The translations under genes were made by a program, and so were the position numbers. From positions 1-64,000 of the forward strand of contig NZ_QLYX01000004.1 in NCBI RefSeq assembly GCF_003289645.1: a DNA stretch of 64,000 nucleotides, read 5' to 3'. The stretch comes from Actinomadura craniellae (GTDB lineage Bacteria; Actinomycetota; Actinomycetes; Streptosporangiales; Streptosporangiaceae). A model generated the notes under the pieces. The model saw only the letters and a list, made by a program, of their open reading frames with translations, was not told where the DNA came from and ran no database searches. Below are positions 20,990 to 55,837 of the stretch, in pieces (the first letter of the stretch is position 1; each line of letters begins with the position of its first letter).

Positions 20990-21718
20990 GCCCGGGCTAT
21001 CAGGACCAGCGTGTCACCGCTCCCCGTGCACGCAGGGATGGTCCAAGGTGGCAGCCTTGCCGGGCTGCCATCAAAGCTGGAAGCGGTCGCGTAGTCGATG
21101 AAGTGACCCATATCCCATCTGCTCGCTATTGGTCTGGATGTGCTTGGCCGTGTGAGGTGCCCTGCTCGGATGATGTCACCCACGTTGCTGTCGTCGGCCG
21201 CTGCATCGATGCGGCGTAGCATGATCGAGGCTTTGCCTCGCATGCGCCCGGCATGGTGCTCGTCTGCGAACTCCTCGATGATCCGTTCAACACACTGGTC
21301 TCGCTGGCTGTCGAATTCTCGCTCGCGCCTGCTGGAGGGTCTCGTTGATCCGCTTGATCAAGGAGGCGAAGTTCGCATCAAGGACTGCGACACCATCGAA
21401 AGGTGTCTCGTCCTTCTTGTGTTCCTGCAGATAGGCAAGGAACTCCTTGGCGAAACCAGCCTTACCGATCCTGGTCCCGAATGTCGCCTCACAGGTGACC
21501 GTAACAACGTCCCACATCGACGTGTTGTAGGCGTTGATGCTGACCTCGATGGCCTTGTCGGTAAGCTCGGCCGCTTCTGCTTCGCTCAGTCCCAGAAGAT
21601 TGGAGATATACGGCGAGCGGCGATGCCAGCGAGCACCAGGGACTAGATCCTCAGGTTCTTCGATCGTGACACCGGGCTCGGCCTATGCGCCCACTTATGC
21701 CGCCCACTCGCCGACCAT
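20990..21718 (-). pseudogene. Decayed partner gene of the adjacent nuclease
   Basis: Reading leftward from an ATG at 21718, 22 bp after the nuclease stop codon, the frame gives MVGEWAA-stop-VGA-stop-AEPG. It is then open (PEDLVPGARWHRRSPYIS..., LTDKAIEVSINAYNTSMWDVVT, FDGVAVLDANFASLIKRINETLQ). A shift near 21325 moves it to another frame (RDQCVERIIEEFADEHHAGRM, MLRRIDAAADDSNVGDII). Two nonsense codons and one frameshift are thus needed to read about 200 residues. The likely ancestor is a second protein of a two-gene defence or restriction locus. The left end is approximate, and the family is not recognised. Confidence 0.55.
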
Positions 21719-21740
21719 GACAATATTGTCAGATTTATCG

Positions 21741-23183: not shown

Positions 23184-23884
23184 ATTATACCTAGTTTATT
23201 TTCCACTACAACTATTGGCAATAGAGTGCAGCGAGATCAACGTCCGAATCGGGCCTGCAACCCCACCAAGACCCACAGGGCCTTGTGCCCTTATCGTCCA
23301 CATTTTGGCAGATTTGGGTTGCTTCGGGGCATAGTGTCCTTGTTGCAGATCCCGTCGCCTTGCCATGGATGACGGCCTCGCTACCCCAACGATCCTTCGC
23401 GCCCGATTGATCATGTCGGCCTAAGCACTGTGGTGGGAGCTGACGCGTGATGTACCAGACTTTTCGACGTTCCGGCCACTACCTGATTAGGCATCACACG
23501 TCGCTCGTTACCCTTGGCCATAGTGGCCTCCTTGCGCATTGCGCTCGAACCTATGTTCGAGTTGGAGCAACGTTAGCAGTACGGTACGACCATCGAGATG
23601 CGACACGCCGAGGATTGCTAGTCTCATCCATAGCATCCATATATATATATGGTAGCCGAGAGTGCCGCTCGCGGGCGGTTCATCAAGACACTGAGGTAAT
23701 TACTCGTCATCTCCTAGCATCTAGCACGATCCTGTGATGGGTCTCGTGCGCCATCTTTGCATCCTGATCTCGCGCAGCACCTCTCGATAGGGTCGGCCAA
23801 CCCGGTCCCAGATGATGCCCCATGCCTGAGAAGCACCATCGTCGTAGCCGTAGGCCTGCACGGTCACTACTACCGTCTCGCGCT
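23184..23884. other. 700-bp gene-free spacer with AT-rich palindrome
   Basis: The first 60 bp upstream of the nuclease gene are very AT-rich and probably contain its promoter. CCATATATATATATGG at 23637-23652 is a perfect 16-bp palindrome. GC content rises towards the right, where the TPR-regulator remnant begins. I see no coding sequence that I can support here. Confidence 0.5.
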
Positions 23885-24480
23885 TTAGACTGCGAGCCGC
23901 ACCCGGTACATCGGGGTGTCAGAGGTGCCATTGTCACGAGCGATGGCGATGAAGCGCAGTGCCTGGTCCTGCTCGTCGGCTCCTCTGTGGGCCAGCGCCA
24001 GTTTCTGCTGGGCGGTCGCCCAGTCCTCGGCCTCCCCCAGGTCCTCGAACTCTCGGACGGCTTCGGCCATAACGCAGACGGCGTACCGGTGCTCCCCGGC
24101 CTTGCTGAGTGCCGTGCCGATCCACAGCCGGGCGCGGGCCCGGTCCTGTCCGCCGAGGCGCTCGTCTCCGGCCAGCTCCTGGTAACGGTGAGCGGCCTCG
24201 TGCAGGGCTCCGGACATCTCGGTGACCACCGCCAGCGATAACTGGACCTGCGCGGCGCGGAGTCTCCAACCGGGCAAAGGAGGCAAGGGCCTGCCGGTAG
24301 GAGTGCTGCGCGGACAGTGGCCCGCCCAGGATGCCCTGGTCTCGCCGGGCATCGGCAAGCAGTCTCAAGGATCGGGCGTGCAGGTACAGGCCAGTGGAGC
24401 CGAGCCAGCCCTTCCGGTGTTCTCAATCTGCGGGACCTCAAGCCGAGCGCCCAGTAGGACCGCGACTGTCGGTCTGCGGG
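23885..24480 (-). pseudogene. Fragment of a TPR-containing transcriptional regulator
   Basis: Several frames on the minus strand together give a helical-repeat sequence. LHARSLRLLADARRDQGILG and SAQHSYRQALASFARLETPR come first, then in another frame VQLSLAVVTEMSGALHEAAH, RLWIGTALSKAGEHRYAV and LGEAEDWATAQQKLALAHRG, stopping at 23885. This is the C-terminal TPR half of the large XRE/TPR regulators common in Streptosporangiales. The N-terminal HTH part is absent and at least two frameshifts are present, so it is a dead fragment left at the edge of the lanthipeptide cluster. Confidence 0.55.
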
Positions 24481-24566: not shown

Positions 24567-25688
24567 CTACGAAAAGCCTGATTCGACGTTCAGAAGTGCA
24601 CGGAGGCGTTGTTCGCCGCATCTCGCTGCGGTCATCAGGTGCCCGTGGAGTGGTTCGAGTATCACGCCCGCGTCCAGCCCACAGATGCGAACGAGTTTGA
24701 CCAGCACCTGGCATTGTTCGTAGGTCAGGTACGGGCGGGCTAGGAGGTCTCGGGCCGCGTACCCGTCGTGGCCTGCCGCCTCGATCAATGTGCGGGTGAG
24801 TTCCTCGCGTTCCGGGCTGTAGTGGGTGCGGGTGAGGTCGAGCACGGTGATGGCGGCCCGACTCCGGAAGACCGTCGTGCCGGGGTCTGTCTGCTTCAGC
24901 AGCGCAAGAGTGCTGGCGATCATGGCGGGGAGGTGGCGTTGGACGTCGGTACCCGCCGATTTCTGGCAGTGGGCGCGCAGGAGATGCTGAACCGCGTGTT
25001 CCCATGGTTCGTGGACGCTGCTGTGGTCGATGAGTTCGGCGGCTTGCTCATGTCGGCCGGTGTGGGCGGCGGCGAGGATGGTGACTTGGCGGCCGTCAAG
25101 GAGCCGTGTGCCGATGCCGCGATGGGCGGCGATGCGTTCGGCCGCATCGGTCCAGCGGCCGACCTGGACGAGGGCGCGTGTGCCGTCGGCAAGCAACGCG
25201 GCCCACACCCGGGCGGTCAGGGCCTTGTGTCCTTCGACGCTGCGGGCGAGATCCCGGAGCCGGACTTTCCGTCCCGCGACGACGGTGCCGCTTTGGGTAC
25301 GGGCGGCGCGGTGGAGGGCTTCGAGCGTGGCGTAGGCGCCGCTGCCGTCACCGTCGCGGATCATCTGGCGGGGGATGTTGAGCAGTGGCTGGAGTGCGAG
25401 CGGCACGACATCGTCCGGCAGCGGCCGGGCCTGCTCGAACACGTCGTACTGCCGCCGGCAGAGGTCTCGGGCCAGGGTGTTCAGGCCGCAGTCCGAGGCG
25501 ATGAGCGCTGCCAGGTTGCACACCTCGGCTGCCCGGATGAGCTGCTGGTGAAGGTCTCCGGTGCCGGGTTCGGCGGCGAGGGCGCGGAGCCTGTCGATCC
25601 TGGTGGTGAGCGGAACGCAGGAGGGCCGGGGTCGCGGGACGAGCGGGAAGTAGCTCGCAGGCGTGATGGTCGGGTGGCGGCCGGTCAT
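24567..25688 (-). CDS. Helical-repeat (TPR-like) protein at the end of the lanthipeptide operon
   Basis: A 373-residue protein of tandem helices (LHQQLIRAAEVCNLAALIASD, LARDLCRRQYDVFEQA, YATLEALHRAARTQ, WTDAAERIAAHRG, TGRHEQAAELIDHSS). It has TPR-like spacing and no catalytic motif. The ATG at 25688 overlaps the stop of the lanthipeptide gene upstream (ATGA), so the two are co-translated. Proteins of this type accompany many class I lanthipeptide operons of actinomycetes; whether they regulate or scaffold the biosynthesis is not known to me. The assignment to the cluster rests on the overlap. Confidence 0.6.
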   Translation of the reverse strand: MTGRHPTITPASYFPLVPRPRPSCVPLTTRIDRLRALAAEPGTGDLHQQLIRAAEVCNLAALIASDCGLNTLARDLCRRQYDVFEQARPLPDDVVPLALQPLLNIPRQMIRDGDGSGAYATLEALHRAARTQSGTVVAGRKVRLRDLARSVEGHKALTARVWAALLADGTRALVQVGRWTDAAERIAAHRGIGTRLLDGRQVTILAAAHTGRHEQAAELIDHSSVHEPWEHAVQHLLRAHCQKSAGTDVQRHLPAMIASTLALLKQTDPGTTVFRSRAAITVLDLTRTHYSPEREELTRTLIEAAGHDGYAARDLLARPYLTYEQCQVLVKLVRICGLDAGVILEPLHGHLMTAARCGEQRLRALLNVESGFS

Positions 25689-26509
25689 GGTGTGGCGCCT
25701 TCCGTGGTGGGGTTGGGGCCGAAGACGACCTGTGCGGCGGTGTGGGCCAGGGCGGTCTGGGCGGGGTAGGGCAGGCCGTGCCGGTTCCAGGTGAAGATGA
25801 CGTGGTGGGCCAGGACGGCGCGCAGGCCGCGGTGCAGCCGCCCGGTGCCGGCGAGAGCGGCGAGTTTCTCGCCGGCTCCGGTGAATGCGGCTGGCCATTC
25901 AGCGGTGTGAGCCAGGGGGCCGCCGTCGGCCGTCAGGGGTGCGGTGTCGACCTGGAGGAGACGTCGTAGGGCGGGTTCGAGGGTGCGGCGGCGTTCGGCG
26001 GTGAGGGGCTGGTCGGGTGGCCGGTGGTCGGCGACGCGGGACCACACGTCGCCCTGCTCGTACCAGTCGAGTCCGGCTCCGCGTAGCAGGGCGCAGCACA
26101 GCAGCACCGCCAGCTCGCGCCGGTGCCCGTTTCGATCGTGGGCGAGGTGGGTGAGCAGGTGGCGGCTGTCATCGTGGAAGAGGTGGTGGGCCGTGGCCAG
26201 GCCGGCGGGACCGCCGAACGCGTGGAGTTCCGGTTCGTAGACGACGTGCCGGAAAGCGGTGATCCGCCGGGTGGTGGCCAGCCTGGTGAGGCGCCCGTGC
26301 AGGAGGTCGTCGGCCTGGGCGGGGTCGGTGCGGGGGCGGTAGCGGAGGCGCCAGCAGGGGGCTTTGCGGACGAAGAACCAGCCGGTGAGCAAGGCGTCGT
26401 CCTGAGCCTGCCGGAGGAGCGGGGCGAGGTCGGTGACCGCGACTCCTTCGGCGGACGCCCAGTCGGCGAAGTGGATGTTGATCTGCTGCCAGCCTTCGGT
26501 GCCGTCCAT
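25685..26509 (-). CDS. Thiopeptide-type bacteriocin biosynthesis domain protein (LanB C-terminal-like)
   Basis: A 274-residue stand-alone protein of the TIGR03891 type. It reads WQQINIHFADWASAEG, LLTGWFFVRKAPCWRLRYRP, ITAFRHVVYEPELHAFGG, HHLFHDDSRHLL and VLAHHVIFTWNRHGLP. This is the fold of the SpaB_C/elimination domain, which removes glutamate from glutamylated Ser/Thr during dehydration. The LanB here has its own C-terminal domain, so this is a second copy in trans, as is usual for FxLD clusters. The start lies 12 bp after the LanC stop, and the stop overlaps the next start. Confidence 0.88.
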   Translation of the reverse strand: MDGTEGWQQINIHFADWASAEGVAVTDLAPLLRQAQDDALLTGWFFVRKAPCWRLRYRPRTDPAQADDLLHGRLTRLATTRRITAFRHVVYEPELHAFGGPAGLATAHHLFHDDSRHLLTHLAHDRNGHRRELAVLLCCALLRGAGLDWYEQGDVWSRVADHRPPDQPLTAERRRTLEPALRRLLQVDTAPLTADGGPLAHTAEWPAAFTGAGEKLAALAGTGRLHRGLRAVLAHHVIFTWNRHGLPYPAQTALAHTAAQVVFGPNPTTEGATP

Positions 26510-26521: not shown

Positions 26522-27727
26522 TCAGGCCAGGAGGAGGAACCGGTCCCAGGCCGGGGTCGGGCAGGTGCCGGTGCCGACGGTGTGGAGGGCGAGGGCTGCT
26601 CCGGCCGCGCCGTCGAGCAGTTCGGGGTCGGTGATCGGCCCGTCCAGCCGGTCCAGTAGCCGGGCGGTCAAGCGGGGCAGTTCGCTGGTCAGACCAGGGG
26701 CGTCGGCGGCCATGCGCCAGGTGGCCTGGAGCAGCCCGGCGGTGCCGTGGCACAGGCCGATCTCCGGTCCGAGCAAGTTGAGGTGGGCCGGGGCGCCGAG
26801 GGCGGTGAGGATGGCGGTTTCGGCGAGGCGTTGTCGGGTCGTGTCTCCGAGTGCCATGCCCGCCAGTTGCTGGGCGCGGGCGGTGCCGGCGATGCCGTAG
26901 CACCAGGAGGGCCGGGGTCGGGCGCTCTGGTCGGGGGTGACGAAACCGGGCCACCAGGGTCCATCGGTGTCGTTGCGCCACTGGTCGGTCCAGCCGCAGA
27001 TTCGCTCGATGGCCTCGGGCATGCCGGGGACCGGGATGTCCTGGAGGACGGCCAGGGACAGCAGCGCCAGGACGGCGCCGATGCCGTGGGCGACGCCGAT
27101 GTTGGCGTGGCCGTGCGGGAAGTCGGGATGCGGCTCGCCGGTAGGGGCCAGGTCGGTCCACCAGGGGGCGAGGGCGGGGTCGGTGGGGAGCGGTTCGGTG
27201 AGCCGGAGCAGGTAGGCGAGGACGTCGCGGGTGATCGGGTGGTCGGGGTGGCGTTCCAGGTGGTAGGCGCCCAGCCCGGCCAGGCCGCGGATCAGGTCGA
27301 ACTCCTTCGGCTCGGGTCGTTCGCCGCGGTCGATGCGGGCGTGCGCGGCGGTGAGGCGCCTGCGGGTGATCGCGATGGTGGCGTCCGCCAGGCGGGCCGG
27401 TGTCCGGGCGTGGCGGCCGGGGGTCGCGGCGGTGTGCGTGACGAAGGCCAGCGCGGGGACGCCCACGTAGAGGCCGGCGTTGGCGGCGGCGGTCAGCGCG
27501 TCGCGGGCGGCGGCCGACAGCCAGGTGCGGGCGGTGCGCCAGTCGCCGTGCCCGGTCCGGGCTCGGGTGATGTGCAGGAGCGCGATGCCGGCGGCACCGC
27601 CGGCCAGCGACTGCGGCCATGCCCGGCCTCCGCCGGCCGGGATGGTCGCCCAGGCGGTGGCCGGGTCGGACAGGGCTGTGGCGAGGGTGGTGGCGGCTGC
27701 CAGTGCGTTCGGGTCGGGCGGGGTCAT
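26522..27727 (-). CDS. LanC-type lanthionine cyclase
   Basis: A 401-residue zinc enzyme that adds Cys thiols to dehydrated residues to close (methyl)lanthionine rings. The (alpha/alpha) barrel repeats show as GGAAGIALL, GLAGLGAYHL, HGIGAVLALL, CYGIAGTARA, CHGTAGLLQA and GAAGAALAL. Zinc ligands are visible: Cys in SWCYG (about residue 277) and Cys-His in GLCHGT (about 324-325). The active-site His is probably in HANIGVAHGIG. Length is typical. The ATG overlaps the LanB stop (ATGA). The enzyme looks fully functional. Confidence 0.92.
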   Translation of the reverse strand: MTPPDPNALAAATTLATALSDPATAWATIPAGGGRAWPQSLAGGAAGIALLHITRARTGHGDWRTARTWLSAAARDALTAAANAGLYVGVPALAFVTHTAATPGRHARTPARLADATIAITRRRLTAAHARIDRGERPEPKEFDLIRGLAGLGAYHLERHPDHPITRDVLAYLLRLTEPLPTDPALAPWWTDLAPTGEPHPDFPHGHANIGVAHGIGAVLALLSLAVLQDIPVPGMPEAIERICGWTDQWRNDTDGPWWPGFVTPDQSARPRPSWCYGIAGTARAQQLAGMALGDTTRQRLAETAILTALGAPAHLNLLGPEIGLCHGTAGLLQATWRMAADAPGLTSELPRLTARLLDRLDGPITDPELLDGAAGAALALHTVGTGTCPTPAWDRFLLLA

Positions 27728-30700
27728 CGTGGGCCCTTCGCGCGTGCGGCCCGGCTCAGGGCCGCGGCACGGGCCAGGTGCAGGCAGCGGCGTTCGCCCG
27801 GCAGGTCGAGTCCGGCCATGCGGGTGTGGTGGAGGTGCAGCAGGTCGGGCAGCAGTTCCCGGGCCGATCGGGCATCGGTAAGGGCCCGGTAGGCGCGCAG
27901 CTTCTGGCGGCGGCGAGCCCAGCAGGCCAGCAGATGGTCGCCGCCTGGCAGGGCGGACACCTGGTGCTGATCAGGGTCGGCCAGGGTGACGGCCTGCCGG
28001 TACAGCGGGCGGGCCGGAGCGGGCGTCGTGGTGCAGGCGTGGTCGATGAGCCACCGCGTCGCCGCGGCGGGGCTGCCGAGGAGGCCGGCGGTGATGTCGA
28101 GGATGCTCGCGGCGGTGAGGGCTTGGGGGTCGGTGTCGCCGCGGTCGGCGATGGCCAGCTGGGCGAGCGCGGCTGTGGAGTCGGCCGCGAAGTAGGCCTC
28201 GGCCACGGCCATCGTCGCCCCTGCTCCGAACCGGCCCTCCTCCGGGAAGTAGGTGTCCCACTGGACGCGGCCGACCAGCCCGGCCTGACGCAGCCGGTCG
28301 CTCCAGTCGGCCAGCCGGGCGGTGACGGCGGCTGAGCGAGCGGCGGGGACGGTCAGGCGGAGCCGCAGATGATCGTGCGGGTCGCGGTAGCGCAGGAACC
28401 ACCAGGTCGCCTGACCGTCCAGGGCGTCCACCAGGTGGGGCAGGTGCCGCAGCAGGATGGCGTTCTGGCCGCCGGGGTGGCTGTAGAGCTTGAGGTAGAA
28501 CCGTCCGGGGCTGCCGGGGAGGTGGCCGTGGTCACGGCCGGGTACCCGCGGGTGGCGCGGTAGCCGGGGTGGAGGGGCGGGCTCGCGGGTGGACGCCAGC
28601 GGGATGACGATCTCGTGGGCGCGGCCGTCGATCCATCCCGACGCGTCGGGGGCGGGTGCGGCGCGCAAAGTGAGGGTGGCGTCGGGTCTGAGCAGGGAGC
28701 GGAGCACCGCCCGATGTGCGGGCTCGGCCAGGTCCAGGCCGAGCCGCCGATCGCCGTCCCCGGCGTAGACGCGAAGGGGCAGCCCGGTCTGTTCCCGCCA
28801 GGCGGTCAGGCCGTGGTCCCAGCCGTTCCCATCCGCCTCGGGTCCTGGCAGGGCGGCGGCGGGAAGTAGCCAGCGCGCCGGGGACAGCAGCGTCCGCCCG
28901 TACCGGAGGGCGGGCAGGAACGGCAGGCGGGACGCCGCCCCCCAGTCGAAGGCCGTGCACGGTACGGCCAGCGCGGTGGGCGCTTCCAGGAGGAAGCGCG
29001 CGAGCGGGTGGGTCTGGCGGACCGGCTCCACCGCGGTCAGCGCCACCGGCTCCACCGGGCGGCGCAGCGACCGCGAGATCAGCAGGATCCGGTCGATGTC
29101 CGCGGTGATGGCGAGGTCGTCGAGCGCGATCACGTCCGCACCGGCGGGGTGGTGTTCGCCCAGCGCAAGCAGGTGGGGCAGCGCCCGGAGGGATCTGGCG
29201 ACGTTCTCGGTGGCCGCGTACAGCGGTGGCGCGGACAGTTGCGCGAGGATCGCCCCGCGCGTCACGGTCGGCAGATCCGCGTACGCCAGGCGCATCCGGT
29301 CGCGGTCCGGCTCGGCGAGCAGATGGAGGAACCGTCCGGTGGTGGTGCCGGCGTTGCGCGACACACCGGTGATCGACAGGGCGAAGTCTCCGTCGTCCAG
29401 GGCGCGCACGGAGGCGGCGTGGACGCGGACGGTCAGTTCGGTGCTCGGCTGGACGGCCGCCCGCGGGCCGGTGTCGGCCAGTTCGGCGATCGCCGCGTCG
29501 TCCAGGGTCACCTCGTGGTCACCGCGCAGCGCGGCGTTCTGGGCGAGGGCCAGGAGCTTGTGGTCCCGGCCGGTCATCGCGGGGGCGGGGGCGGCCGGTG
29601 CGCTGAGGTATCCGGCCGGGAATCCGAGTCCGATATCGGGGTCGACCGCGTCGCGGACGGGGACCAGGGCGTGCGGCCCGTACCGTTCGAGGAACTCGCG
29701 GTGCCAGGCCGCCCATCCACGGCCGAGATCTCCCCGGGGCGCCAGCCGGACGAGCGCGGACGCGGCCCTCGCGGCCTCGTCCGCCACCGCGGACGGCACC
29801 GTGACCTCCACATCCATCCGCAGGTCCGTTCTCACGGCACGGTCCGCTGGGACGGATGCCTTCGCCGTCCCCACGGCGAGTTCGGCACGCTGCGAGCGGG
29901 TCATTTCCGGGATGGTTCGGCGGGCGAGTGCGTCGCCGGCCTCGCGAAGAGCGGTGACGGTCCCGGCCAGTTGCGGGATGTCCGACGCGGACACCGCGTC
30001 GAGTTCGGCGAGCAGGTGGGGCAGCGGGTCGGTCACGGTCATCGGCGACCGCAGGGAAGTGATCAGCAGGCGTTGGTCCACCAGTTCCGCCAGGAGCCGG
30101 GTGATGACGTCGCCGGGGACTCCCGGGAAGGCGGCGGCGAGATGGGCGGCCAGGTCGGCCGACCGGATCGGTGCGGACGCGGCCCGCAGTGCCGCCCGGA
30201 CGGCGGGAGTGGCCCGCACCCGCACCTGGACGGGTGCGCCCCCCGCACCGCCGGCGGGACGGTGGGTCAGCAGCACCTCGCCGTCCCGCTCGACGATGAG
30301 GTCGTGCCGCACCACCGGCAGCCGCCGCAGGAGCGCCGGGTCGGCCTCCAGCCGCTCGATGACCGCCCCCAGCCAGGCGGAGTCGACGTTGCTGACGGGC
30401 CGGTGCCCGGTGCCGATCCCGAGCGCGGCCCGATCGGAGATCCGGGCCGGGGCGACGCCGGCGAACAGGCCGAACGGCGTCGCCCGTCCCAGGGCGCGCA
30501 GCAGGTACCGCGCGGTGGCCAGGGTCGCGCGACGCGCGTCGGGCTCGGCGACCCGCTTCCCCGCGAGGATCTCGTGGACGCGGCGAGCCAGGGCCGGGCT
30601 GGCCTGCTCCACCGCGGCGGCGAAGGCCGGCAGCCGCATGACCGTCTCCAGCCACGGCTGCCAGGAGTGCTGCCCGGCCGGGCCGGTCAGGTCAGGCCAT

Positions 30701-30768
30701 GCGGGGATCCCGGTGTGCGGCGGCCAGGCCGTCATGCGGATCACCGCGGCGTCGAGGGGCTGGTACAC
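27724..30768 (-). CDS. LanB-type lantibiotic dehydratase
   Basis: A 1014-residue full-length class I dehydratase. The N-terminal glutamylation region begins YQPLDAAVIRMTAWPP and contains RYLLRALGRATPFGLFAGVA and FLERYGPHALVP. The C-terminal elimination domain, from about residue 753, reads FYLKLYSHPGGQNAILL, WWFLRYRDPHDHLRLRL and VQWDTYFPEEGRFG. LanB uses glutamyl-tRNA to dehydrate Ser/Thr in the precursor. I place the start at GTG 30768 because CGGAG lies 6 nt upstream, the family's conserved sequence begins at that point, and a perfect hairpin occupies the space before it. An ATG at 30873 would overlap the precursor gene and add an unconserved extension. Confidence 0.9.
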   Translation of the reverse strand: MYQPLDAAVIRMTAWPPHTGIPAWPDLTGPAGQHSWQPWLETVMRLPAFAAAVEQASPALARRVHEILAGKRVAEPDARRATLATARYLLRALGRATPFGLFAGVAPARISDRAALGIGTGHRPVSNVDSAWLGAVIERLEADPALLRRLPVVRHDLIVERDGEVLLTHRPAGGAGGAPVQVRVRATPAVRAALRAASAPIRSADLAAHLAAAFPGVPGDVITRLLAELVDQRLLITSLRSPMTVTDPLPHLLAELDAVSASDIPQLAGTVTALREAGDALARRTIPEMTRSQRAELAVGTAKASVPADRAVRTDLRMDVEVTVPSAVADEAARAASALVRLAPRGDLGRGWAAWHREFLERYGPHALVPVRDAVDPDIGLGFPAGYLSAPAAPAPAMTGRDHKLLALAQNAALRGDHEVTLDDAAIAELADTGPRAAVQPSTELTVRVHAASVRALDDGDFALSITGVSRNAGTTTGRFLHLLAEPDRDRMRLAYADLPTVTRGAILAQLSAPPLYAATENVARSLRALPHLLALGEHHPAGADVIALDDLAITADIDRILLISRSLRRPVEPVALTAVEPVRQTHPLARFLLEAPTALAVPCTAFDWGAASRLPFLPALRYGRTLLSPARWLLPAAALPGPEADGNGWDHGLTAWREQTGLPLRVYAGDGDRRLGLDLAEPAHRAVLRSLLRPDATLTLRAAPAPDASGWIDGRAHEIVIPLASTREPAPPPRLPRHPRVPGRDHGHLPGSPGRFYLKLYSHPGGQNAILLRHLPHLVDALDGQATWWFLRYRDPHDHLRLRLTVPAARSAAVTARLADWSDRLRQAGLVGRVQWDTYFPEEGRFGAGATMAVAEAYFAADSTAALAQLAIADRGDTDPQALTAASILDITAGLLGSPAAATRWLIDHACTTTPAPARPLYRQAVTLADPDQHQVSALPGGDHLLACWARRRQKLRAYRALTDARSARELLPDLLHLHHTRMAGLDLPGERRCLHLARAAALSRAARAKGPR

Positions 30769-30790
30769 CGAACGCTCCGGAGAGTGCGGA

Positions 30791-30821
30791 ACGGCCGGGC
30801 CGTCTGGGACGGCCCGGCCGT
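30791..30821 (-). promoter_or_regulatory. Hairpin between precursor and LanB genes (attenuator)
   Basis: ACGGCCGGGCCGTC (30791-30804) and GACGGCCCGGCCGT (30808-30821) are perfect complements around a 3-nt loop. The stem begins 19 bp after the precursor stop and ends 22 bp before the GTG chosen for lanB. A partial terminator or processing hairpin in this place would allow much more precursor than dehydratase to be made, a known arrangement in lanthipeptide operons. Confidence 0.75.
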
Positions 30822-30839
30822 CGACGAAGAATTCAGCCG

Positions 30840-31028
30840 CTACGGGCAGGTGGGCGAGCAGGCGGACTGGCACGTCGTGCCGCAGCCGTCGTCGGTCATC
30901 CTGATGAGCTTGTCCGCCTCGGGACCGGACTCGACGATCGAGACGTCCAGTTCCCAGTCCTCGAATCCCGCCGCCTGTTCCGTGACCGGCGGGAGCGCCG
31001 CCGGGGCCGTGCCGAACTGGATGGACAT
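30840..31028 (-). CDS. FxLD-family class I lanthipeptide precursor
   Basis: A 62-residue precursor. The leader holds FEDWELDVSIVESGPEAD, matching the FxLD family leader; the signature is W-E-L-D here, with Trp in place of the first Phe. The core IRMTDDGCGTTCQSACSPTCP has four Cys and several Ser/Thr for (methyl)lanthionine rings. AGGAGG lies 5 nt before the ATG. It lies between the FxLD methyltransferase and LanB genes on the same strand, the standard order. The leader cleavage site and protease cannot be assigned from this sequence. Confidence 0.9.
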   Translation of the reverse strand: MSIQFGTAPAALPPVTEQAAGFEDWELDVSIVESGPEADKLIRMTDDGCGTTCQSACSPTCP

Positions 31029-31104: not shown

Positions 31105-32325
31105 TCAGGCCCAGGACACCGTGACGGTCCCGTGCGGCTTGACCGAAGCCAGGTCCTGGGCTCCTCCGGCCGCGGCGAGGGCCGCGGGGATGTAGCGGAT
31201 GCGCGCCGCGCCGCGCCGCCGGAAGCCGGTCGCCCACCGGCGCAGCAGGTCGCAGTACTCCTCCGCGATCGTCTCGGCCTGCGGACCGTGCGCGAGGACG
31301 CCGCTCTCGAAGCCGCCGGTGGCTTCGTTCACCCTCCTGATCCGGTAGGCGAAACCGCCGTCGCGGACCAGGGCGGGCACGCCCCTGCCCGCCGAGGCGT
31401 CGAACCGGCCCTGGTCGATCAGCTCCCGGCCGGCGTGCAGCATCGCGGCTCGCGGCGTGCTGGTGAGCAGGAACAGTTCCAGCTCATCGGGCAGGTCGTA
31501 CGCCGCCCCCGACCAGGCTTCCAGCGGCCGGGTGCGCGCGGCGGCAGCCAGCGCGCCGGTGTCGAAGTGGCGGGAACGGTCGTCGACCCGCAGGAACAGG
31601 CCGTCCTCGATCGGGACGACCAGCTCGCGGTGCGCGCCGATCCCCTGCATCGGGACGAACCCGCACAACCGGTAGCTGCTGCTCGCCAGGGCCCCGCCGT
31701 CGCCGTCCCGGTCGAACGCGATCGACCGGGTCACTCCCCGCCACCGCAGCGGGACGACGATCCGTCCCCGCCCGGCCAGCTGGTCCAGCCAGGCCGGCGG
31801 GATGTCGAAGGCCCCGGCCGTGACGATGATGCGGTCGTAGGGAGCGCCGTCGGGGACACCGTGCTCGGCGTCGGCCCGCACCACCCGCACCCGCTCGTAC
31901 CCGGCCTCGTCCAGGCAGGTACGCGCCCTGGCGACGATGTCCGGGTCGATGTCGACGGTGGTCACCTCTCCGGACGCACCGGCCAGCTCGGCGAGCAGTG
32001 CGGCGTTGTACCCGCCCGACCCCACCTCCAGCACCCGCATTCCGGGTTCGACCCCGGCCTGCTCCAGCATCACCGCCTGGATGTGGGCGGCCGACAGCGA
32101 GCTCAGCGCCAGACCGTCGTCGTTCCGCTTGATCACCAGCGGCGTGTCCGGCGCGTACACCTTCTCCAGCGGTTCGCCGATCGCGAACAGGTGCCGCGGC
32201 ACCGTGCCGACGGCCGCGGCCACCGGCTCGGACGTGATGCCGTCCAGGTCGCGGAGCTCCCGCACCATCGCGGCCCGCAGCGGCGCTGCCGCATCGTCCA
32301 CACTGCGATCTCGGATCGTGGTCAT
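31105..32325 (-). CDS. FxLD-system O-methyltransferase (protein-L-isoaspartate methyltransferase family)
   Basis: A 406-residue SAM-dependent methyltransferase. The N-terminal domain is PCMT-like (VPRHLFAIGEPLEKVYAPD, LSAAHIQAVMLEQAGVEPGMRVLEVGSGGYNAALLAEL, VTTVDIDP, YDRIIVTAGAFDIPPAWLDQL). The C-terminal extension of about 170 residues is specific to FxLD systems. Related enzymes methylate an Asp side chain in modified lanthipeptides to form isoaspartate or aspartimide. The precursor's DD pair before the first Cys is a plausible target, though that is inference. I chose ATG 32325, preceded by GGGTGA; a TTG at 32337 is also possible. It is the first gene of the leftward operon. Confidence 0.88.
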   Translation of the reverse strand: MTTIRDRSVDDAAAPLRAAMVRELRDLDGITSEPVAAAVGTVPRHLFAIGEPLEKVYAPDTPLVIKRNDDGLALSSLSAAHIQAVMLEQAGVEPGMRVLEVGSGGYNAALLAELAGASGEVTTVDIDPDIVARARTCLDEAGYERVRVVRADAEHGVPDGAPYDRIIVTAGAFDIPPAWLDQLAGRGRIVVPLRWRGVTRSIAFDRDGDGGALASSSYRLCGFVPMQGIGAHRELVVPIEDGLFLRVDDRSRHFDTGALAAAARTRPLEAWSGAAYDLPDELELFLLTSTPRAAMLHAGRELIDQGRFDASAGRGVPALVRDGGFAYRIRRVNEATGGFESGVLAHGPQAETIAEEYCDLLRRWATGFRRRGAARIRYIPAALAAAGGAQDLASVKPHGTVTVSWA

Positions 32326-32474
32326 TCGGTCACCCAATCATCGGAGTCGGTCCGCGGCGGTCGGGATCGCGGCGGAGCGTCTCGTCCATCCGGTCGCTCT
32401 CACGAGGTCCGGCCGGCCGGCCCGGTACGGCTCCACGGTGTCACCGGGCCCGGGCGCGGACCACGCGTTGCCGT

Positions 32475-32493
32475 CCTAGTTCTGCCCTAGTTC
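32475..32493. promoter_or_regulatory. Direct repeat CCTAGTTC in divergent promoter region
   Basis: CCTAGTTC occurs at 32475-32482 and 32486-32493, 11 bp apart, about one helical turn. It lies in the 230-bp spacer between the leftward lanthipeptide operon and the rightward STAND-HUMPS operon. Tandem octamers with one-turn spacing are typical of activator sites. The XRE domain encoded by the next gene is a candidate binder. Confidence 0.4.
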
Positions 32494-32555
32494 CGGATGC
32501 GGGTTGGTTACCGTGTGCCTGGCGGCACGGGCGGCGAGGGGGCGGGGGCGGAGTC

Positions 32556-35500
32556 ATGGGTTCGGTGGTGGCCCGGTGGACCGGCCGGGAGGCGCGGGCG
32601 CTCCGTGAGGCCAAGCGCATGAGCGTCCGCGAGTTCGCCGCGCACCTCGGGGTCAACGACGCCGCGGTGTCGAACTGGGAGCGGCGCGGCACGGACGCGA
32701 GGCTGCGCTATGACACGCAGCAGCTTCTCGACACCGACCTCACCAGATCCGAGCCGGCCGTTGCCGAGCGGTTCGTCCTCATCCTTCGCTCGGACGGCGG
32801 CGATGAGCCGGCCGATCCTCCGGCGGAGCGCACGCCGTCCACAGGCACCGACCGGTTCGGTGCCCGGTCCGGGCAGCGCACCGCCGTTCTGCTGGAGACG
32901 GCCCGGACCGGCACCGCCGAGCCGGGGTACCGGCCCGACGGGGCGGCCGTCGAGGCCTTCCGGCAGTTCCTCGATTCGCCCTCGCGGGCCTTCGCCCTCG
33001 CAGGCCGCTCGGGCAGCGGTAAGACCCTGCTCACCCGGCACCTGGCGGACGTGCTGTCCGGGCAGGCCGACTTCCAGTTCCATTCCTGCTCGACCTGGGC
33101 TGTGCCCGATGCCGGGCTGGCCACCGAGATCCTGCGCTACGCCTCGGTTCCCGGCGGGGAGGACCCGCTGCTGAGCCTGGAAGAGGCTTCGGCCGGGCTG
33201 CGGCGTTCCTGCGTGGTGATCATCGACGGCATCGACACCGAGGAGCAGCTCACGGGCGTCGGCCGGCAGGTCGACGGGGTTTTACGGCAGGCGGCCTCCG
33301 ACCGGCTGCGGTTCGTCGTCGTGGTCCGGACGCCACCCGCGGTGGACGTGTCGGCCTTTCCCGTGCTGGCCGCGTCGACGTTCGGCCCCGCGGCGCGCCC
33401 GTCCGTGCCCTCCTACGTGATGCGGCGGTGGACGCCGGCCGAAGCGCGCGAGCAGTGGGAGCGAAACCAGAGTCCGGAGCAGCCCGCCTTCACCGAACTG
33501 CCGCATGCGCTGCAGGCCCTGGTGCGGACACCGCTGTACCTGCGGATGCTGCACGGTTCCGAAGGCGCCCGGCAGGTGGGCGGCGAGCCGGGGGCGAGCA
33601 ATGCGTTCCGCCTGGTCGACCACTGCGTTCGGATGGTCCTTACCCGGGCCCGCCAGGACGTCGAGCCGACCATGGACCGGCTGGCGGAACTGGCCTGCGA
33701 TGAGGCTCCCGAGATCATGCCCCGCGCGCTGGCCGAGTCCCCGCCGCGCCCGAACCGCGCCGCGGCCGTCTCGCCGGCCGGCGCTCCGGTGCCCGCGCTC
33801 GTCGAACGCGAGACTGGCGGACGAGAGCGGTTCGCCCACGGGGTGTTCCGCGACTACTTCCTCGCCGTCCGCATAGCCGACCGGATGATCGCCCGAGGCC
33901 GCTCAGCCGCGACGATCGCCGCGTTCAACGAACTCGCCGACCGGGCCGGCCGGTCGGCGGCGGCACGCGGCGTGTTCGACTTCGTCGTGTGCGCGCTCGA
34001 CCGTCACGCACCGGACTTCATCGAGCTCCTCGCCCTGGCCCCGTCCATCGGGCTGGAGACGGCACTGCCAATGCTGCTCGAAACGGCGGCGTCGAACGGG
34101 AACCTCGCCTCTCCGCACGTCCTCCGTACCTGCGCCGACCGCTGCTCCCAGGCGCCGACGAGCCGGCTCGCCAGGGCGTTGCTGGCCGCACCGCCCCTCA
34201 CCGAAGCGCTCGCCGACCGGCACGCGCCCTGGGTCGTCCAGCAGTTGCGCACCCACGGGTTCGGCATATGGGACGACGTGGCCCGCCACCTCGAACACGC
34301 CCTCGACGTCCGGGTGAGCGCCCGGGTCCTCGACTGCGTGGACTTCGACAACGCCGAGGAGGCGGCGTTCCTGGCCCGACACTTCGACCTGTTCGCCGGT
34401 GCCCATCGCGACGACGTCAAGGTGCTCCCCCGGCTGCTGCGGCACCTGGACTGGCGGGTGCGGGCCGCCCTCGCCGAAGCCCTCGGCGGCCCCCGCGTGC
34501 TCGGTGACGGGCATGTGCGCCTGATCGTGGAGCGGCTGGCCCGGGACGACGACTACAAGGTCCGTGCCGCCGTGGGGCGGGCGATCGGTGCCGCCGGGCC
34601 CGCGGTGGATCTCGCCCACGTGCGCGCGCTGCTCGCCGACGGCAACTGGCATGTCCGCGAGCGGACTCTGCGGGGAGTCCTGTCAGGTCCTCGCGAGCCC
34701 CTGCCGGACCGCGAGCTGGCCGACACCGTGGTCGCGTCGATCGCGGGCGACGGCAGCTGGCGGTCGGCCCCGGCTCCGGTGGCGAAGCTCCTCACGCGGC
34801 TCCGGCTGCTCCACGGTGACCATGCCGGGGAGCGCTCCGCACTCGACGGCACCGCGCTGTTCGAGCTGCTCCGGGAGACGCGCACCGGCTGGATCGAGCT
34901 GCCGGGAGAGCTCGAACGCGCGCTGATCGCCCGGGGGCACGACTCCGCCCGCTGGCTGACCGTTCGCGAGGCCCATGCCGCGCGGCGGCGGGAAAGCGCG
35001 GCGAGCGCCCGCGAGGCGTACCGGAAGCGGCGGGGCCGGCGATCGGTCCAGGTCGCCCTCGACGTCCACGACCTGGACCGCGCGATCGAGATCGCCACGG
35101 CCGCGGCAGAGGCCGGAGTCGACTTCATCGAGGTGGGCGATCCGCTGATCAAACGCGTGGGGGTCGAGGCCGTCGACGCGGTCAAACGGCATGCTCCCGA
35201 GGTCGCCGTGGTCGCGGAGATGATGTCCGCCGACTGGGGACGTGATCAGGTGGAGCTGGCCGCCGAAGCGGGGGCCGACGTCGTGCTGCTCATCGGGCCG
35301 GCGTCCATCGCCAGCGTGTCCGCCGCCGTGGGCGCGGCGCGGCGCCTCGGGGTCGTCCTCACCCTCGACGCGCCGTCCCGGCACGTCGACCCGTCGTGGC
35401 TGCGCGACATGGAGCGGGCAGGGATCGACGGGTTCGTCGTCACCACCAACATCGACCTCGGGGTCGGGGGCACCCGGCCCCTGGCGGCCGCCCGGACCAT

Positions 35501-35690
35501 CCGGGCGTGCAGCGAGCTGCCCGTGGCCGTGTCAGGCGGATTCGGCATCGCCGATGACGCGCTCACCGGCAGCGCCGACTGGGACATCGCGATCGTCGGC
35601 CGCGGTGTCGCCGAGGCGGTCACGCCCGCCGACATGCTCCACCGGCTCACCGCCCTCATCCACACCACTCACCACGGGACTCGCTCATGA
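32556..35690 (+). CDS. XRE-HTH + STAND-like NTPase + HEAT-like repeats + HUMPS/OMPDC-barrel fusion
   Basis: A 1044-residue multidomain protein. Residues 5-60 are an XRE helix-turn-helix (WTGREARALREAKRMSVREF, VNDAAVSNWERRG). Residues of about 130-450 are an NTPase with Walker A AGRSGSGKTLLT (149-156) and Walker B SCVVIIDGID (about 220-228). Residues of about 470-810 are HEAT/armadillo-like helical repeats (LDWRVRAALAEALGG, DDDYKVRAAVGRAIGAAG, DGNWHVRERTLRGVL). From about 830 to the end is a TIM barrel of the hexulose-6-phosphate synthase/OMP decarboxylase superfamily (VQVALDVHDLDRAIEIA, VDFIEVGDPLIKRVG, VAVSGGFGIADD). The catalytic D-x-K-x-x-D reads E-M-M-S-A-D (888-893), so Lys is lost. I infer a STAND-type switch with the barrel as sensor. 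The stop overlaps the GNAT start. Confidence 0.8.
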   Translation: MGSVVARWTGREARALREAKRMSVREFAAHLGVNDAAVSNWERRGTDARLRYDTQQLLDTDLTRSEPAVAERFVLILRSDGGDEPADPPAERTPSTGTDRFGARSGQRTAVLLETARTGTAEPGYRPDGAAVEAFRQFLDSPSRAFALAGRSGSGKTLLTRHLADVLSGQADFQFHSCSTWAVPDAGLATEILRYASVPGGEDPLLSLEEASAGLRRSCVVIIDGIDTEEQLTGVGRQVDGVLRQAASDRLRFVVVVRTPPAVDVSAFPVLAASTFGPAARPSVPSYVMRRWTPAEAREQWERNQSPEQPAFTELPHALQALVRTPLYLRMLHGSEGARQVGGEPGASNAFRLVDHCVRMVLTRARQDVEPTMDRLAELACDEAPEIMPRALAESPPRPNRAAAVSPAGAPVPALVERETGGRERFAHGVFRDYFLAVRIADRMIARGRSAATIAAFNELADRAGRSAAARGVFDFVVCALDRHAPDFIELLALAPSIGLETALPMLLETAASNGNLASPHVLRTCADRCSQAPTSRLARALLAAPPLTEALADRHAPWVVQQLRTHGFGIWDDVARHLEHALDVRVSARVLDCVDFDNAEEAAFLARHFDLFAGAHRDDVKVLPRLLRHLDWRVRAALAEALGGPRVLGDGHVRLIVERLARDDDYKVRAAVGRAIGAAGPAVDLAHVRALLADGNWHVRERTLRGVLSGPREPLPDRELADTVVASIAGDGSWRSAPAPVAKLLTRLRLLHGDHAGERSALDGTALFELLRETRTGWIELPGELERALIARGHDSARWLTVREAHAARRRESAASAREAYRKRRGRRSVQVALDVHDLDRAIEIATAAAEAGVDFIEVGDPLIKRVGVEAVDAVKRHAPEVAVVAEMMSADWGRDQVELAAEAGADVVLLIGPASIASVSAAVGAARRLGVVLTLDAPSRHVDPSWLRDMERAGIDGFVVTTNIDLGVGGTRPLAAARTIRACSELPVAVSGGFGIADDALTGSADWDIAIVGRGVAEAVTPADMLHRLTALIHTTHHGTRS

Positions 35691-36160
35691 TCATCACACC
35701 GCTTTCGGTGGATCGGATCCAGGACGTCCACAAGCTCATGGAACTGGGTGAGCCCTACATCCGTGCTCGCACGCCCTCGGACTACTGGCTCTACGCGCAC
35801 CTGTTCTCCTCCACCTGCCCGCTGGCGGTGGTCGACGACGTTCTCGCCGGTGCGGTCATCGCCTTCCGCAGCCAGGACGACCCCGCCGACGTCTACGTCC
35901 AGGACGTGATGACGCACCCCGATCACCGGCGCCGCGGAATCACCCAGGCGCTGATCAGCCGTGTTCGCTCCCAAGCGCAAGCCTGGGACTGCCGACGGAT
36001 CTACCTCACCTCCGAACCCGACAACACCGCGGCGCACCGCACTTGGACCGCCCTGGGATTCCACAACGTCACCGGCGACCACGAGATCAACGGCATCTCG
36101 ATGACCAGCAACTTCAAAGGGCCGGGCCGCGACCGGGCCATCTACCAACTCGACCTCTGA
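35687..36160 (+). CDS. GNAT-family N-acetyltransferase
   Basis: A 157-residue GNAT protein. VYVQDVMTHPDHRRRGITQALI holds the acetyl-CoA pyrophosphate-binding motif (RRRGIT, of the Q/R-x-x-G-x-G/A type). RIYLTSEPDNTAAHRTWTALGF is the typical motif B region. The substrate cannot be read from sequence. The ATG overlaps the stop of the STAND-HUMPS gene (ATGATC), so the two are translationally coupled and probably act together. Confidence 0.85.
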   Translation: MIITPLSVDRIQDVHKLMELGEPYIRARTPSDYWLYAHLFSSTCPLAVVDDVLAGAVIAFRSQDDPADVYVQDVMTHPDHRRRGITQALISRVRSQAQAWDCRRIYLTSEPDNTAAHRTWTALGFHNVTGDHEINGISMTSNFKGPGRDRAIYQLDL

Positions 36161-36572
36161 CGGGACCACAACTTCAGCGGCCGAAATGCGGTGGTTTCTC
36201 CGTAGCGGCCGGCCAGTCGCCTGCGCCAGGCATCTGGGACGCAGGGGCCTTCGCCTTCGCCGTCTCTTCAGGGCGTAGGGGGCCGTGGTCACTTGCGTCT
36301 GAACAACTCGGGGGGAGGTTCTGCGGGTCTCGTTGCGTCCGAACGATCCGGTGTCGGTGAACTCTCCGTCGGCGCCCAGATGAGGCCCGTACACGGCGGT
36401 GAAGGGACTCGCGCGGACCCGCCGGGTGAAGCCGGCCCGATGTCGGTACGGAGTCACCGGAAGTCCCGAGCATCGCGTCGCGGGCGTTCCGATGTCCTGC
36501 CGGCACGGGCGCTCTCGAGCGCAGGGCCCCGCAGGGTCCGTTCTCACGAATGCAGCGAAGAAAGAGGAGTCG
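36161..36572. other. 412-bp spacer between GNAT and NUDIX genes
   Basis: No frame here has codon usage or motifs that I can support as a gene. The stretch is less GC-biased at codon third positions than its neighbours, and AAAGAGGAG at its end is the ribosome-binding site of the NUDIX gene. It may hold a promoter for the NUDIX and radical SAM genes, or DNA left after loss of a gene. Confidence 0.4.
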
Positions 36573-37007
36573 ATGACCGCAAAGGTCACCAAGGACAAAG
36601 TGCTGTGCTACATCGTCCGGGACGGCCGGTTGCTGGTGTTCCGGCACACCGACTACAGCTACGAGCAGGTCGGGATCCAGGTCCCGGCCGGCAGCGTCCG
36701 CCCAGGAGAGGCGTCCGAGGACGCGGCGCTGCGCGAGGCCCGCGAGGAGACCGGCCTCGACTACTTCAAGATCGTTCGGAAGCTGGGCGAGACCGAGTAC
36801 GACATCACCCCCTACCGGTACGAGATCCAGCGACGGCACGTGTTCCACCTGGAACCCACCGAACCGACCCCGGAACGGTGGGCGAGCCAGGAACTGCACG
36901 ACGGCGAGCAGGAACCCACCAACTTCGAATGCTTCTGGGTTCCGCTGGAGGCCGCCCACATCCTCCAGTCCGGCCAGGGCGCCCTGCTGGGCCGCCTCTA
37001 TGACTGA
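36573..37007 (+). CDS. NUDIX hydrolase
   Basis: A 144-residue NUDIX protein with a complete box in GSVRPGEASEDAALREAREE + TGL (G-x5-E-x7-R-E-A-x-E-E-x-G-L), so metal-dependent cleavage of a nucleoside diphosphate-linked substrate is expected. VFHLEPTEPTPERWASQELH and NFECFWVPLEAAHIL complete the fold. The substrate is unknown. AAAGAGGAG lies just before the ATG. It is 16 bp upstream of the broken radical SAM gene and in the same direction as the STAND-HUMPS and GNAT genes, so it probably belongs to the same pathway. Confidence 0.88.
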   Translation: MTAKVTKDKVLCYIVRDGRLLVFRHTDYSYEQVGIQVPAGSVRPGEASEDAALREAREETGLDYFKIVRKLGETEYDITPYRYEIQRRHVFHLEPTEPTPERWASQELHDGEQEPTNFECFWVPLEAAHILQSGQGALLGRLYD

Positions 37008-39996: not shown

Positions 39997-41859
39997 TCAC
40001 AGTCCAGGGCGGCGAGGCTCTGGAGGCTTTGTCCTGCCCGATCGGTCCGGTGCCGGTGGGCTTTCCGCCGGTGCCCAGGGCACAGGGAAGGCGGTCATCG
40101 CCAGGTCCACCGGTGTTGGGGCATGAGCGGGCTGAGTGAGCCAGGGAACCTGACGGTTCTGTGCCGATCCGGCCTGGTGGAGATGCCGGCCGGCGGCCTG
40201 GGCCGCCGCCGCTTGGGCGTGCCGGTGCTCGGCTTGGTGGAGTTGGGCGATGGTGTCGATGAGGGTGATGAGGTTGGCGGTCAGGAGCATGACCGCCTGA
40301 GTGCCCTGGTCGCCGAAGACGCCGGTCATGGCCAGCAGTCGGGCGGCGGTGCGCAGGCCGGTACCGGCCGGGGTGGGTGCGGGGATGCGACCGTAGGGGG
40401 CACGAGCGGCCCGGTCGTAGGCGTCGGCCGCGGCGCGCAGATGGCGGTTGCCGGTGGCGTGGGCGGCCACATGCAGGGTGTCGGAGGCGGCCCAGATCGC
40501 ATCCCGGGCGGTGTGCGGGTCGACCGCCATGCAGCGGCGAACCTGGGCGGTGGCGTAGTCGGCCGCGCGTGCGGCGTCCTCGTAGAACGCCCGGCGCTCC
40601 TCCACCGTGAGGTCCATCGCCGGCTCGGGGTCCAGGTGACGGGTGGATCTCGGCCCCCAGCGATGTTCCAGGCGCTGCCAGGACAGGTCGTCGGACAGCC
40701 GACCGCCGCCGTACCACCGGGGTTGCCCGTCGGGGTCGGTGTGGTCGGGCAGGGTGACGGAGTAGCCAGTGATCTGGCCGGGGTGGAACTCGCTGAACCG
40801 CTGCTTGGCCAGCACGCCGTTGCGGGCCAGGTGCTCGAAGAACTCCTCGGGCGTCCGCGTCTGGTCGGCGGCCTGGCGGACGATCGTCCGCAGCACGGCC
40901 CGGGCGGACCGGACGGACAGGTGGCGGCCCGATACCGGCTGGTAGTCCCCGGGTCGCGGCTGACCGAGCGATCGGTCAGCCGGATCGAGCGGAGAGCGCG
41001 GCCGGGGCACGGCCGGGACGGTCCAGCGGTGGCGGAGCTTGGGCAGGGTCAGGTCGGCGGCGAGCTTGCCGCCGCCGTACCAGACCGGCTGACCGTCCGC
41101 GGCCAGGTCGCCGGGGAGAGCGACGGCGTACCCGGTCACCTCGCCCGGATCCCGGCGGCTGAACCGCATTCGGACCAGGGCACCCTGCTCGCGCAGGCGG
41201 GCGAAGAACTCGGCCTCGTCCCGAGCTCCGGCCGCGGCGGTGGCCGCGTGGCGGCGCAGCGCGGTCCGCGGCGGCTCGGCCCAGCCGCGGCGGCGGGCCT
41301 TCTCGGTCTCTCCGCGTTTGGGCCGCTTGGCCGCGGTCCGGTCGGCCGGGGCCGTCCGCCGTAACCCGAACCGCTCCTCGATCGCCCGGCAGGCGTCGCG
41401 CACCCGGTAGCCGTCGTTCCACACGTCCGGACGCTCGCCGTCCTGGCGGGCCAGGGTCGCGATGATGTGGATGTGGTCGTCGGCATGGCGGACCGCAACC
41501 CACCGGACCGCTTCCTCGTCCTCGGGCCGGGCCAGCCCGGTCCGGGCCATCACCTCCCGTGCGGCTTGAGCCCACTGCTCGTCGGTCAGCACCGGGTCCT
41601 CCGGAGCCGCCCGCAACGACAGGTGCCAGACCGGCTTGCGATAGTTGCGATCACCGAGCATCGCCAGCGGCTGGGCCAGCAACCCGTCCAACCGCCGGAA
41701 ATCCCGCCCGCCGTCCGGTAACAGCGCCGGCTCCAATTCCGCCGGGCTGCGGAAGCCAGCTACGATATGCGGATCGCGGTGTTCACCGTGCTCGCCCGGG
41801 CCGTACACATATCGGATCAGACCCTGCACCCGCGCCCCACGCAATACTTTTCCGATCAC
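39997..41859 (-). CDS. Relaxase (MobA/VirD2-like mobilisation nuclease)
   Basis: A 620-residue relaxase that nicks and carries the transferred strand. It begins VIGKVLRGARVQGLIRYVYG with GTG 41859; an in-frame ATG at 41934 would add 25 residues. WHLSLRAAPEDPVLTDEQW and RWVAVRHADDHIHIIATLA hold the HxDxHxH-type metal-binding motif of MOBP-like relaxases. Two copies of a related module follow (FSRRDPGEVTGYAVALPGD...WYGGGKL and FSEFHPGQITGYSVTLPDH...WYGGGRL). The C-terminal region ends in TPVDLAMTAFPVPW, 39 residues from the end, the tail motif shared with five other proteins encoded at 10-21 kb. This ties it to that T4SS. Confidence 0.88.
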   Translation of the reverse strand: MIGKVLRGARVQGLIRYVYGPGEHGEHRDPHIVAGFRSPAELEPALLPDGGRDFRRLDGLLAQPLAMLGDRNYRKPVWHLSLRAAPEDPVLTDEQWAQAAREVMARTGLARPEDEEAVRWVAVRHADDHIHIIATLARQDGERPDVWNDGYRVRDACRAIEERFGLRRTAPADRTAAKRPKRGETEKARRRGWAEPPRTALRRHAATAAAGARDEAEFFARLREQGALVRMRFSRRDPGEVTGYAVALPGDLAADGQPVWYGGGKLAADLTLPKLRHRWTVPAVPRPRSPLDPADRSLGQPRPGDYQPVSGRHLSVRSARAVLRTIVRQAADQTRTPEEFFEHLARNGVLAKQRFSEFHPGQITGYSVTLPDHTDPDGQPRWYGGGRLSDDLSWQRLEHRWGPRSTRHLDPEPAMDLTVEERRAFYEDAARAADYATAQVRRCMAVDPHTARDAIWAASDTLHVAAHATGNRHLRAAADAYDRAARAPYGRIPAPTPAGTGLRTAARLLAMTGVFGDQGTQAVMLLTANLITLIDTIAQLHQAEHRHAQAAAAQAAGRHLHQAGSAQNRQVPWLTQPAHAPTPVDLAMTAFPVPWAPAESPPAPDRSGRTKPPEPRRPGL

Positions 41860-42045
41860 AGCACCCCACGCCGCTGGTCGCGCGAAAGAAAACGGAATTA
41901 CGCCATCTACAAGACGCAATGCCGGAATTCTCAAGGACGGCTCTCACCAAACGAGAAACCGTGATGAGCGGTTAAGGCAAGATGTAGTGCGAGGGGCTCG
42001 GTTTCATCGAACAGGGCCACCCAAGTGACACTAATATCCCAGCGC

Positions 42046-52223: not shown

Positions 52224-55837
<3,614 letters not shown>

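Follow-up and report, generated by a model that had tools for sequence, protein, structure and literature searches.

STAND regulators such as MalT and the AfsR-type SARP-NB-ARC-TPR proteins are cluster-situated and combine a helix-turn-helix (HTH), a P-loop NTPase and superhelical repeats; the AfsR/SARP types use direct-repeat operators with an 11-bp register near the -35 region. Trigger enzymes such as NadR and PutA join a metabolic enzyme fold to a DNA-binding domain in one chain and regulate few promoters. We analyzed a stretch of 64,000 nucleotides of Actinomadura craniellae (contig NZ_QLYX01000004.1, positions 1 to 64,000; the window), in which a single open reading frame (ORF) at 32556..35690 (+ strand) encodes a protein of 1044 aa with elements of both: an XRE-type HTH, a STAND-like NTPase, HEAT repeats and a C-terminal barrel of the HUMPS/OMPDC fold. 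A GNAT acetyltransferase gene follows it and completes the cassette.

The protein differs from MalT and AfsR by its XRE instead of LuxR or OmpR HTH, HEAT instead of TPR repeats, an enzyme-fold barrel at the C-terminus and a near-constant GNAT neighbour, and from NadR and PutA by the NTPase-HEAT switch placed between HTH and barrel and by the replacement of catalytic residues. The EACC1-caspase NTP-dependent conflict systems (PMC7159879) likewise combine a P-loop NTPase and repeats with a swappable N-terminal module (HTH, caspase-like or other), but the window protein has neither an EACC1-type nor a caspase_w_EACC1 domain, the latter being found only in one homologue, L021. Term searches of two eLife surveys did not find TIM barrel, GNAT/acetyltransferase or hexulose-phosphate synthase, and term searches of the literature that paired HUMPS with either STAND/NACHT or biosynthetic clusters gave no description of the fusion. 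As far as checked, the rebuilt barrel and its GNAT partner are new, while the layout and the operator logic resemble those of STAND cluster regulators. We favour, with about an even chance, the reading that the cassette is a portable transcriptional switch, cluster-situated and serving only the locus in which it lies; its input would be ligand binding by the barrel, and the GNAT protein would act on the same chemistry.

Domain layout and the rebuilt barrel pocket

The C-terminal barrel (residues 829-1038; 35040..35669, + strand, as for all domains of this protein) matched PF00215 (OMPdecase/HUMPS) with an E-value of 1.8e-12 and 48.1 bits, against a gathering cut-off of 27. The nearest solved structure by sequence is the 3-hexulose-6-phosphate synthase (HPS) 9lj9 (E 1.9e-27, 31% identity). 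AlphaFold modelled the region as a TIM barrel (pLDDT 88, pTM 0.88), and the top Foldseek matches of this model were HPS and KGPDC, with TM scores of 0.80-0.84. The fold assigned from the letters alone in an earlier, sequence-only reading was thereby confirmed.

Pocket residues were assigned from a published table of HPS and KGPDC active-site residues (PMC5980557) and by alignment with canonical HPS of the same phylum, Actinomycetota, in which the D-x-K-x-x-D motif takes the form D[ML]KT[IM]D. Alignment with homologues and canonical HPS showed the rebuilt motif EMMSADWGRDQ (residues 888-898; 35217..35249), in which EMMSAD (residues 888-893; nt 35217-35234) occupies the D-x-K-x-x-D position. The loss of the catalytic Lys noticed in the sequence-only reading is fixed across the family: the position is Met in every member except the degenerate copy L103, which has Thr. 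The barrel shares with HPS and KGPDC the common TIM-barrel fold, and HPS residues D8, E30, G32, D64, D109 and G186 are retained as D836, E859, G861, D893, D938 and G1015, with R1016 matching the KGPDC arrangement. The metal residues and the phosphate-binding Gly1015-Arg1016 are in place by alignment, as the earlier reading had it for the phosphate site. The substitutions relative to HPS are T33 to D862 (a new Asp), the metal Asp D59 to E888, the catalytic K61 to M890 and H134 to T963; the last, replacement of the catalytic His (KGPDC H136 / HPS H134), adds to the earlier description. Kept and substituted residues alike are invariant in the family, L103 excepted.

Both proton-handling residues are lost, while the residues for metal and phosphate are kept, and no HPS-type function is expected of the barrel, which is fused to a regulator. 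We infer that it would no longer perform HPS or KGPDC chemistry. Canonical HPS identity was also rejected by score (TIGR03128, 97.9 bits against an equivalog cut-off of 200). A substitute Lys elsewhere in the pocket was considered and rejected: K866 is invariant, but it is the lysine that HPS normally has in GTPLIK and does not stand in for the lost one. The earlier statement that normal catalysis is lost holds for the missing Lys and His, but it is too simple, as the pocket is rebuilt with new invariant residues and the barrel with its GNAT partner also exists without NTPase and HTH. Binding without turnover is plausible because the KGPDC mutants K64A and H136A were crystallised with a bound substrate analogue (PDB 1so4 and 1so3; entry titles).

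The remaining parts follow in the order XRE HTH, P-loop NTPase, HEAT and barrel along the chain. The HTH (residues 8-80; 32577..32795) was assigned from sub-threshold profile matches (HTH_31, 21.6 bits, cut-off 27; HTH_3, 21.2 bits, cut-off 23; E 3e-4 for the HTH_31/HTH_3 match), comparison with homologues and the full-length AlphaFold model, in which the HTH helices are predicted. The NTPase core (residues 131-300; 32946..33455) carries Walker A AGRSGSGKT at about residues 149-157 and Walker B VVIIDGID at about 219-226; the patterns GxxGxGK[TS] and hhhhD are present in the full-length members of the family. The HEAT repeats (residues ~601-760; 34356..34835) matched HEAT_2 above its cut-off in the Pfam profile search (E 2.5e-8), and the full-length model (pLDDT 81, pTM 0.58), which agrees with the barrel-only model, has continuous helices at residues 429-823. 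The HTH, intact NTPase and helical repeats of the sequence-only reading were all found, the first two with profile scores below the cut-offs.

A conserved family with a GNAT partner

About 40 homologous loci in actinomycetes share this architecture, most as a single ORF of ~1025-1070 aa; 28 relevant loci came from one collection scan and the others from whole-genome searches. Two candidates, L030 and L031, were judged by eye to be HMGL-type synthases and set aside. The fusion is a genuine family with a fixed motif, and the single-ORF homologues rule out both a sequencing error and the alternative that a neighbouring gene was joined here through a lost stop codon. Members occurred in 5 of 299 genomes of the order of the window genome (its own included, and one a fragment), in 15 of 301 Micromonosporaceae (the family of L018), 8 of 297 Pseudonocardiaceae (that of L019) and 1 of 298 Streptomycetaceae (that of L011). 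From this sparse distribution the fusion is taken to be old and accessory. A plasmid or viral origin was rejected: plasmids held only canonical HPS-type matches, at ~30% identity, and the viral contigs searched held no relative. L004, L005 and L006, whose records bear the names of different Nocardia species, are 99.6-100% identical over a 19-kb region around the cassette, possibly by recent transfer or by mislabelling of the records.

No part of the protein is better conserved than the barrel, whose mean pairwise identity is 64%. The GNAT protein reaches 61%, but identity falls to 38-47% in the HTH, NTPase, helical and HEAT regions and to 28% in the linker. The barrel is under strong purifying selection (dN 0.09 against dS 1.37 in the pair L024/L100). 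Its invariant positions are concentrated on the catalytic face (30 of 75 positions, against 24 of 135; p = 0.0009). This pattern is the reverse of that of a sensor with a host-specific ligand and suggests a role of the pocket common to all hosts.

Two other explanations were weighed against these data. HPS and KGPDC are dimers that share active sites, and the barrel might be a structural module that only supplies dimerisation to the STAND protein; this is very unlikely, as the invariance lies on the catalytic face and extends to polar residues that are new (Asp862, Glu888, Trp894 and Asn965) and that dimerisation does not obviously require. Chance fusion or decay of the gene in this genome can be practically discounted. 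Some relatives are indeed truncated or debris (L022, L024, L026, L146, L148 and L149), but the same architecture in about 40 loci, the purifying selection on the barrel and a stop-free open frame of 1150 codons here speak against it. The degenerate L103 (5989-7590, - strand) is an HTH-HEAT-barrel protein with neither NTPase nor GNAT gene, and its pocket residues have been lost (EMMSAD to AVTAID, VALD to VALN, VGR to VSR).

The GNAT gene (35687..36160, + strand) overlaps the stop codon of the barrel gene by 4 nt. Wherever a locus extends far enough downstream, the GNAT gene comes after the barrel gene, L026 and L103 being the exceptions. Its closest solved relatives are YqjY (1mk4; E 1e-20) and EctA (E 6e-13); the motifs SDYWLYA and FKGPG are specific to the partner family. 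An obligate pair of barrel and GNAT enzymes was considered, a proposal weakened by the Micromonosporaceae, where 14 of 28 GNAT-bearing genomes had no barrel match at E 1e-50; three of those inspected (L146, L148 and L149) keep barrel debris.

Other genes were seen beside the GNAT gene. A small P-loop kinase overlaps it in L156 (9369-10516) and is fused to it in L158 (9356-10480), as another GNAT partner. A NUDIX hydrolase gene lies downstream of it in the window (36399-37007, + strand) and is not conserved as the next gene; ORFs judged by eye to be NUDIX-like also lie close to HUMPS or GNAT genes in L028, L153, L156 and L158.

Divergent operons, the operator-like repeat and the immune alternative

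The operon head-to-head with the window gene is an FxLD lanthipeptide cluster on the - strand. Its first gene, for an FxLD-system methyltransferase (31105..32337; start codon at 32325 or 32337), scored 514 bits with TIGR04364 (cut-off 320). It is accompanied by genes for a lantibiotic dehydratase (LanB; 27724..30873, by profile matches), a lanthipeptide cyclase-like (LanC-like) protein with weak LanL/LanM matches only (26522..27727) and a thiopeptide-type (TIGR03891) biosynthesis protein (25685..26509). All members with an HTH have a minus-strand gene or operon upstream; in 5 of 41 loci, some of which duplicate one another, a short predicted + strand ORF lies between.

Comparison of neighbours, as the sequence-only reading had proposed, showed these head-to-head operons to be unrelated and mostly biosynthetic. 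FxLD-type genes lie upstream of the cassette in the Saccharopolyspora loci. Elsewhere the operons contain radical SAM and PLP decarboxylase genes; two radical SAM and a cupin gene; thymidylate-synthase-like, epimerase and carbamoyltransferase genes; PhyH and LCM genes; AdoMet synthetase, APH-like kinase and seryl-tRNA synthetase genes; or PEP mutase, P450, DegT aminotransferase and others. In the tree the near relatives of the window protein (L002, L003 and L112) face different operons, and lanthipeptide-type operons accompany two distant barrel branches, so that close barrels have different operons and distant barrels similar ones.

Between the divergent genes of the window a tandem direct repeat, CCTAGTTCTGC and CCTAGTTCCG, with an 11-bp period (32475..32495, + strand) is the predicted operator of the HTH; its second copy overlaps the -35 region. 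A -10-like hexamer, TACCGT (32509..32514, + strand), lies 16 nt after the second repeat by consensus reading only, and comparable TANNNT hexamers occur in the homologue promoters; a consensus promoter scan gave no match, as expected for a high-GC actinomycete. Across homologues the repeat stands at a near-constant distance upstream of the start codon. The number of chance matches expected in the window is 0.02, and the window site is the sole match in its genome. Of the 14 genomes searched, 12 had exactly one match, in each case before the cassette gene, and a search for a regulon gave no further operator-like sites. When 25 promoters were compared, 11 carried the dyad CTAG-N6-CCTA, whereas shuffling gave it in 6 at most. 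Rugosimonospora has three copies of the repeat.

The Saccharopolyspora/Amycolatopsis clade has a different recognition helix (FAQSTVANWEK) and a different repeat, TGATCGGTTC and TGATCAGT, with a 10-bp period. The first motif was absent before members with other recognition helices (L009, L023, L100 and L103) and before members with no HTH. This co-variation of repeat and recognition helix supports binding by the fused HTH, and the spacing of the direct repeats by one helical turn would fit a switch that works as an oligomer. With a biosynthetic operon adjacent and an operator-like site between, the cassette has the arrangement of a cluster-situated regulator, in support of the transcriptional role suggested earlier, and it probably controls the adjoining biosynthetic clusters.

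Two members have exchanged the HTH and have same-strand neighbours in place of a divergent operon. In L021 (Nocardia jiangxiensis, 7011-10823) an EACC1-associated caspase domain takes its place (NCBIfam 210 bits, cut-off 140; Pfam Peptidase_C14, 1.9e-4), and L011 (Streptomyces, 7779-10856) has a third type of N-terminus, GRTYQAAGDINVFE, by eye reminiscent of bacterial amyloid-type signalling motifs. These two proteins, and a BREX-like locus 16-27 kb away in the window, would fit an NLR-like immune switch, whose barrel would sense invasion or metabolic damage and whose response, transcriptional or by caspase, would protect the population. We consider this improbable: most members combine an HTH with an operator-like site of their own and lie beside biosynthetic genes, the viral contigs and plasmids gave the results described above, and immune STAND sensor domains are usually variable, whereas the barrel is the most conserved part here. 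Of the immune-type sensor raised by the sequence-only reading there remains the one caspase-bearing homologue, set against PADLOC matches of the window protein that were only weak and confined to the P-loop and HTH.

Elsewhere in the window, three large consecutive genes (52224-63051, + strand), two with Eco57I-type methylase and PglZ domains, form the BREX-like phage-defence locus. A MobA/VirD2-type relaxase gene (39997-41934, - strand) suggests an integrated mobile element beside the cassette, and the region 21001-24000, with a G+C content of ~52% against 70-75% around it, is a possible foreign insert.

A candidate cluster-situated switch

Several observations weigh against a transcriptional switch with the barrel as its input. 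The NTPase did not reach the NACHT/NB-ARC profile cut-off (NACHT 15.0 bits against 26.7, E 0.02), for which reason it was labelled STAND-like; with NTPase and HTH both under curated cut-offs, the term STAND rests on the Walker motifs, the repeats and the layout. The operator is predicted from sequence, and 11-bp direct repeats serve SARPs and other regulators too. Not all upstream operons are obviously biosynthetic: some have a permease and a formamidase or a histidine kinase (metabolism, transport and sensor genes). In a Ktedonobacteraceae metagenome-assembled genome (L028), the one genome of 47 in its class to hold a member, the barrel is a separate gene of 243 aa near a GNAT gene, with no NTPase or HTH, and in Sinosporangium (L024) barrel and GNAT likewise stand without them, probably by truncation; the pocket is intact in both.

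These last two loci also bear on a further explanation, in which the barrel is catalytic and its chemistry new. Together with the GNAT protein it would form or remove a single common small molecule, and the HTH-STAND part would time expression of the pair and the cluster as in a trigger enzyme. We regard this as possible, though clearly short of probable. It would account for a pocket that is rebuilt and invariant instead of drifting, for a barrel as strongly conserved as the GNAT enzyme and for the loss of pocket residues in L103, an intact-frame member that has no GNAT gene. Yet both known acid/base residues of HPS and KGPDC are gone, and the GNAT gene persists where the barrel is absent or debris and so does not need it. 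This explanation and the favoured switch both predict that the pocket is essential, and they differ in whether substrate is turned over.

If the cassette is a switch with a ligand-binding barrel, the barrel would still bind Mg2+ and a phosphorylated sugar-like metabolite (through Asp836, Glu859, Glu888, Asp893, Asp938 and Gly1015-Arg1016). Binding would shift the NTPase between a closed ADP and an open ATP state, and oligomers would set several HTHs in register on the repeats one helical turn apart, by which the cassette's own promoter, and probably also the divergent operon, would be repressed or activated. The GNAT protein may modify the metabolite bound by the barrel, or one of its products, and close a feedback loop. 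All hosts would have the same ligand, irrespective of the product of the adjacent cluster. In an unlikely variant, barrel and GNAT jointly make a small hormone-like signal that the STAND-HTH part of the same polypeptide senses; the cassette would in that case unite synthase and receptor by fusion, as a plug-in switch of quorum or hormone type common to unrelated natural-product clusters.

In this family a rebuilt sugar-phosphate enzyme barrel is conserved in the place where regulators carry their sensor, and the cassette travels between unrelated biosynthetic clusters with barrel and acetyltransferase nearly unchanged. If the favoured reading of a cluster-situated switch is true, it would be a clear case of a catalytic pocket turned switch. 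Should a single common metabolite control all of these clusters, it would be a general key to silent ones, and the cassette would serve genome mining as a beacon for clusters that are small and unusual.

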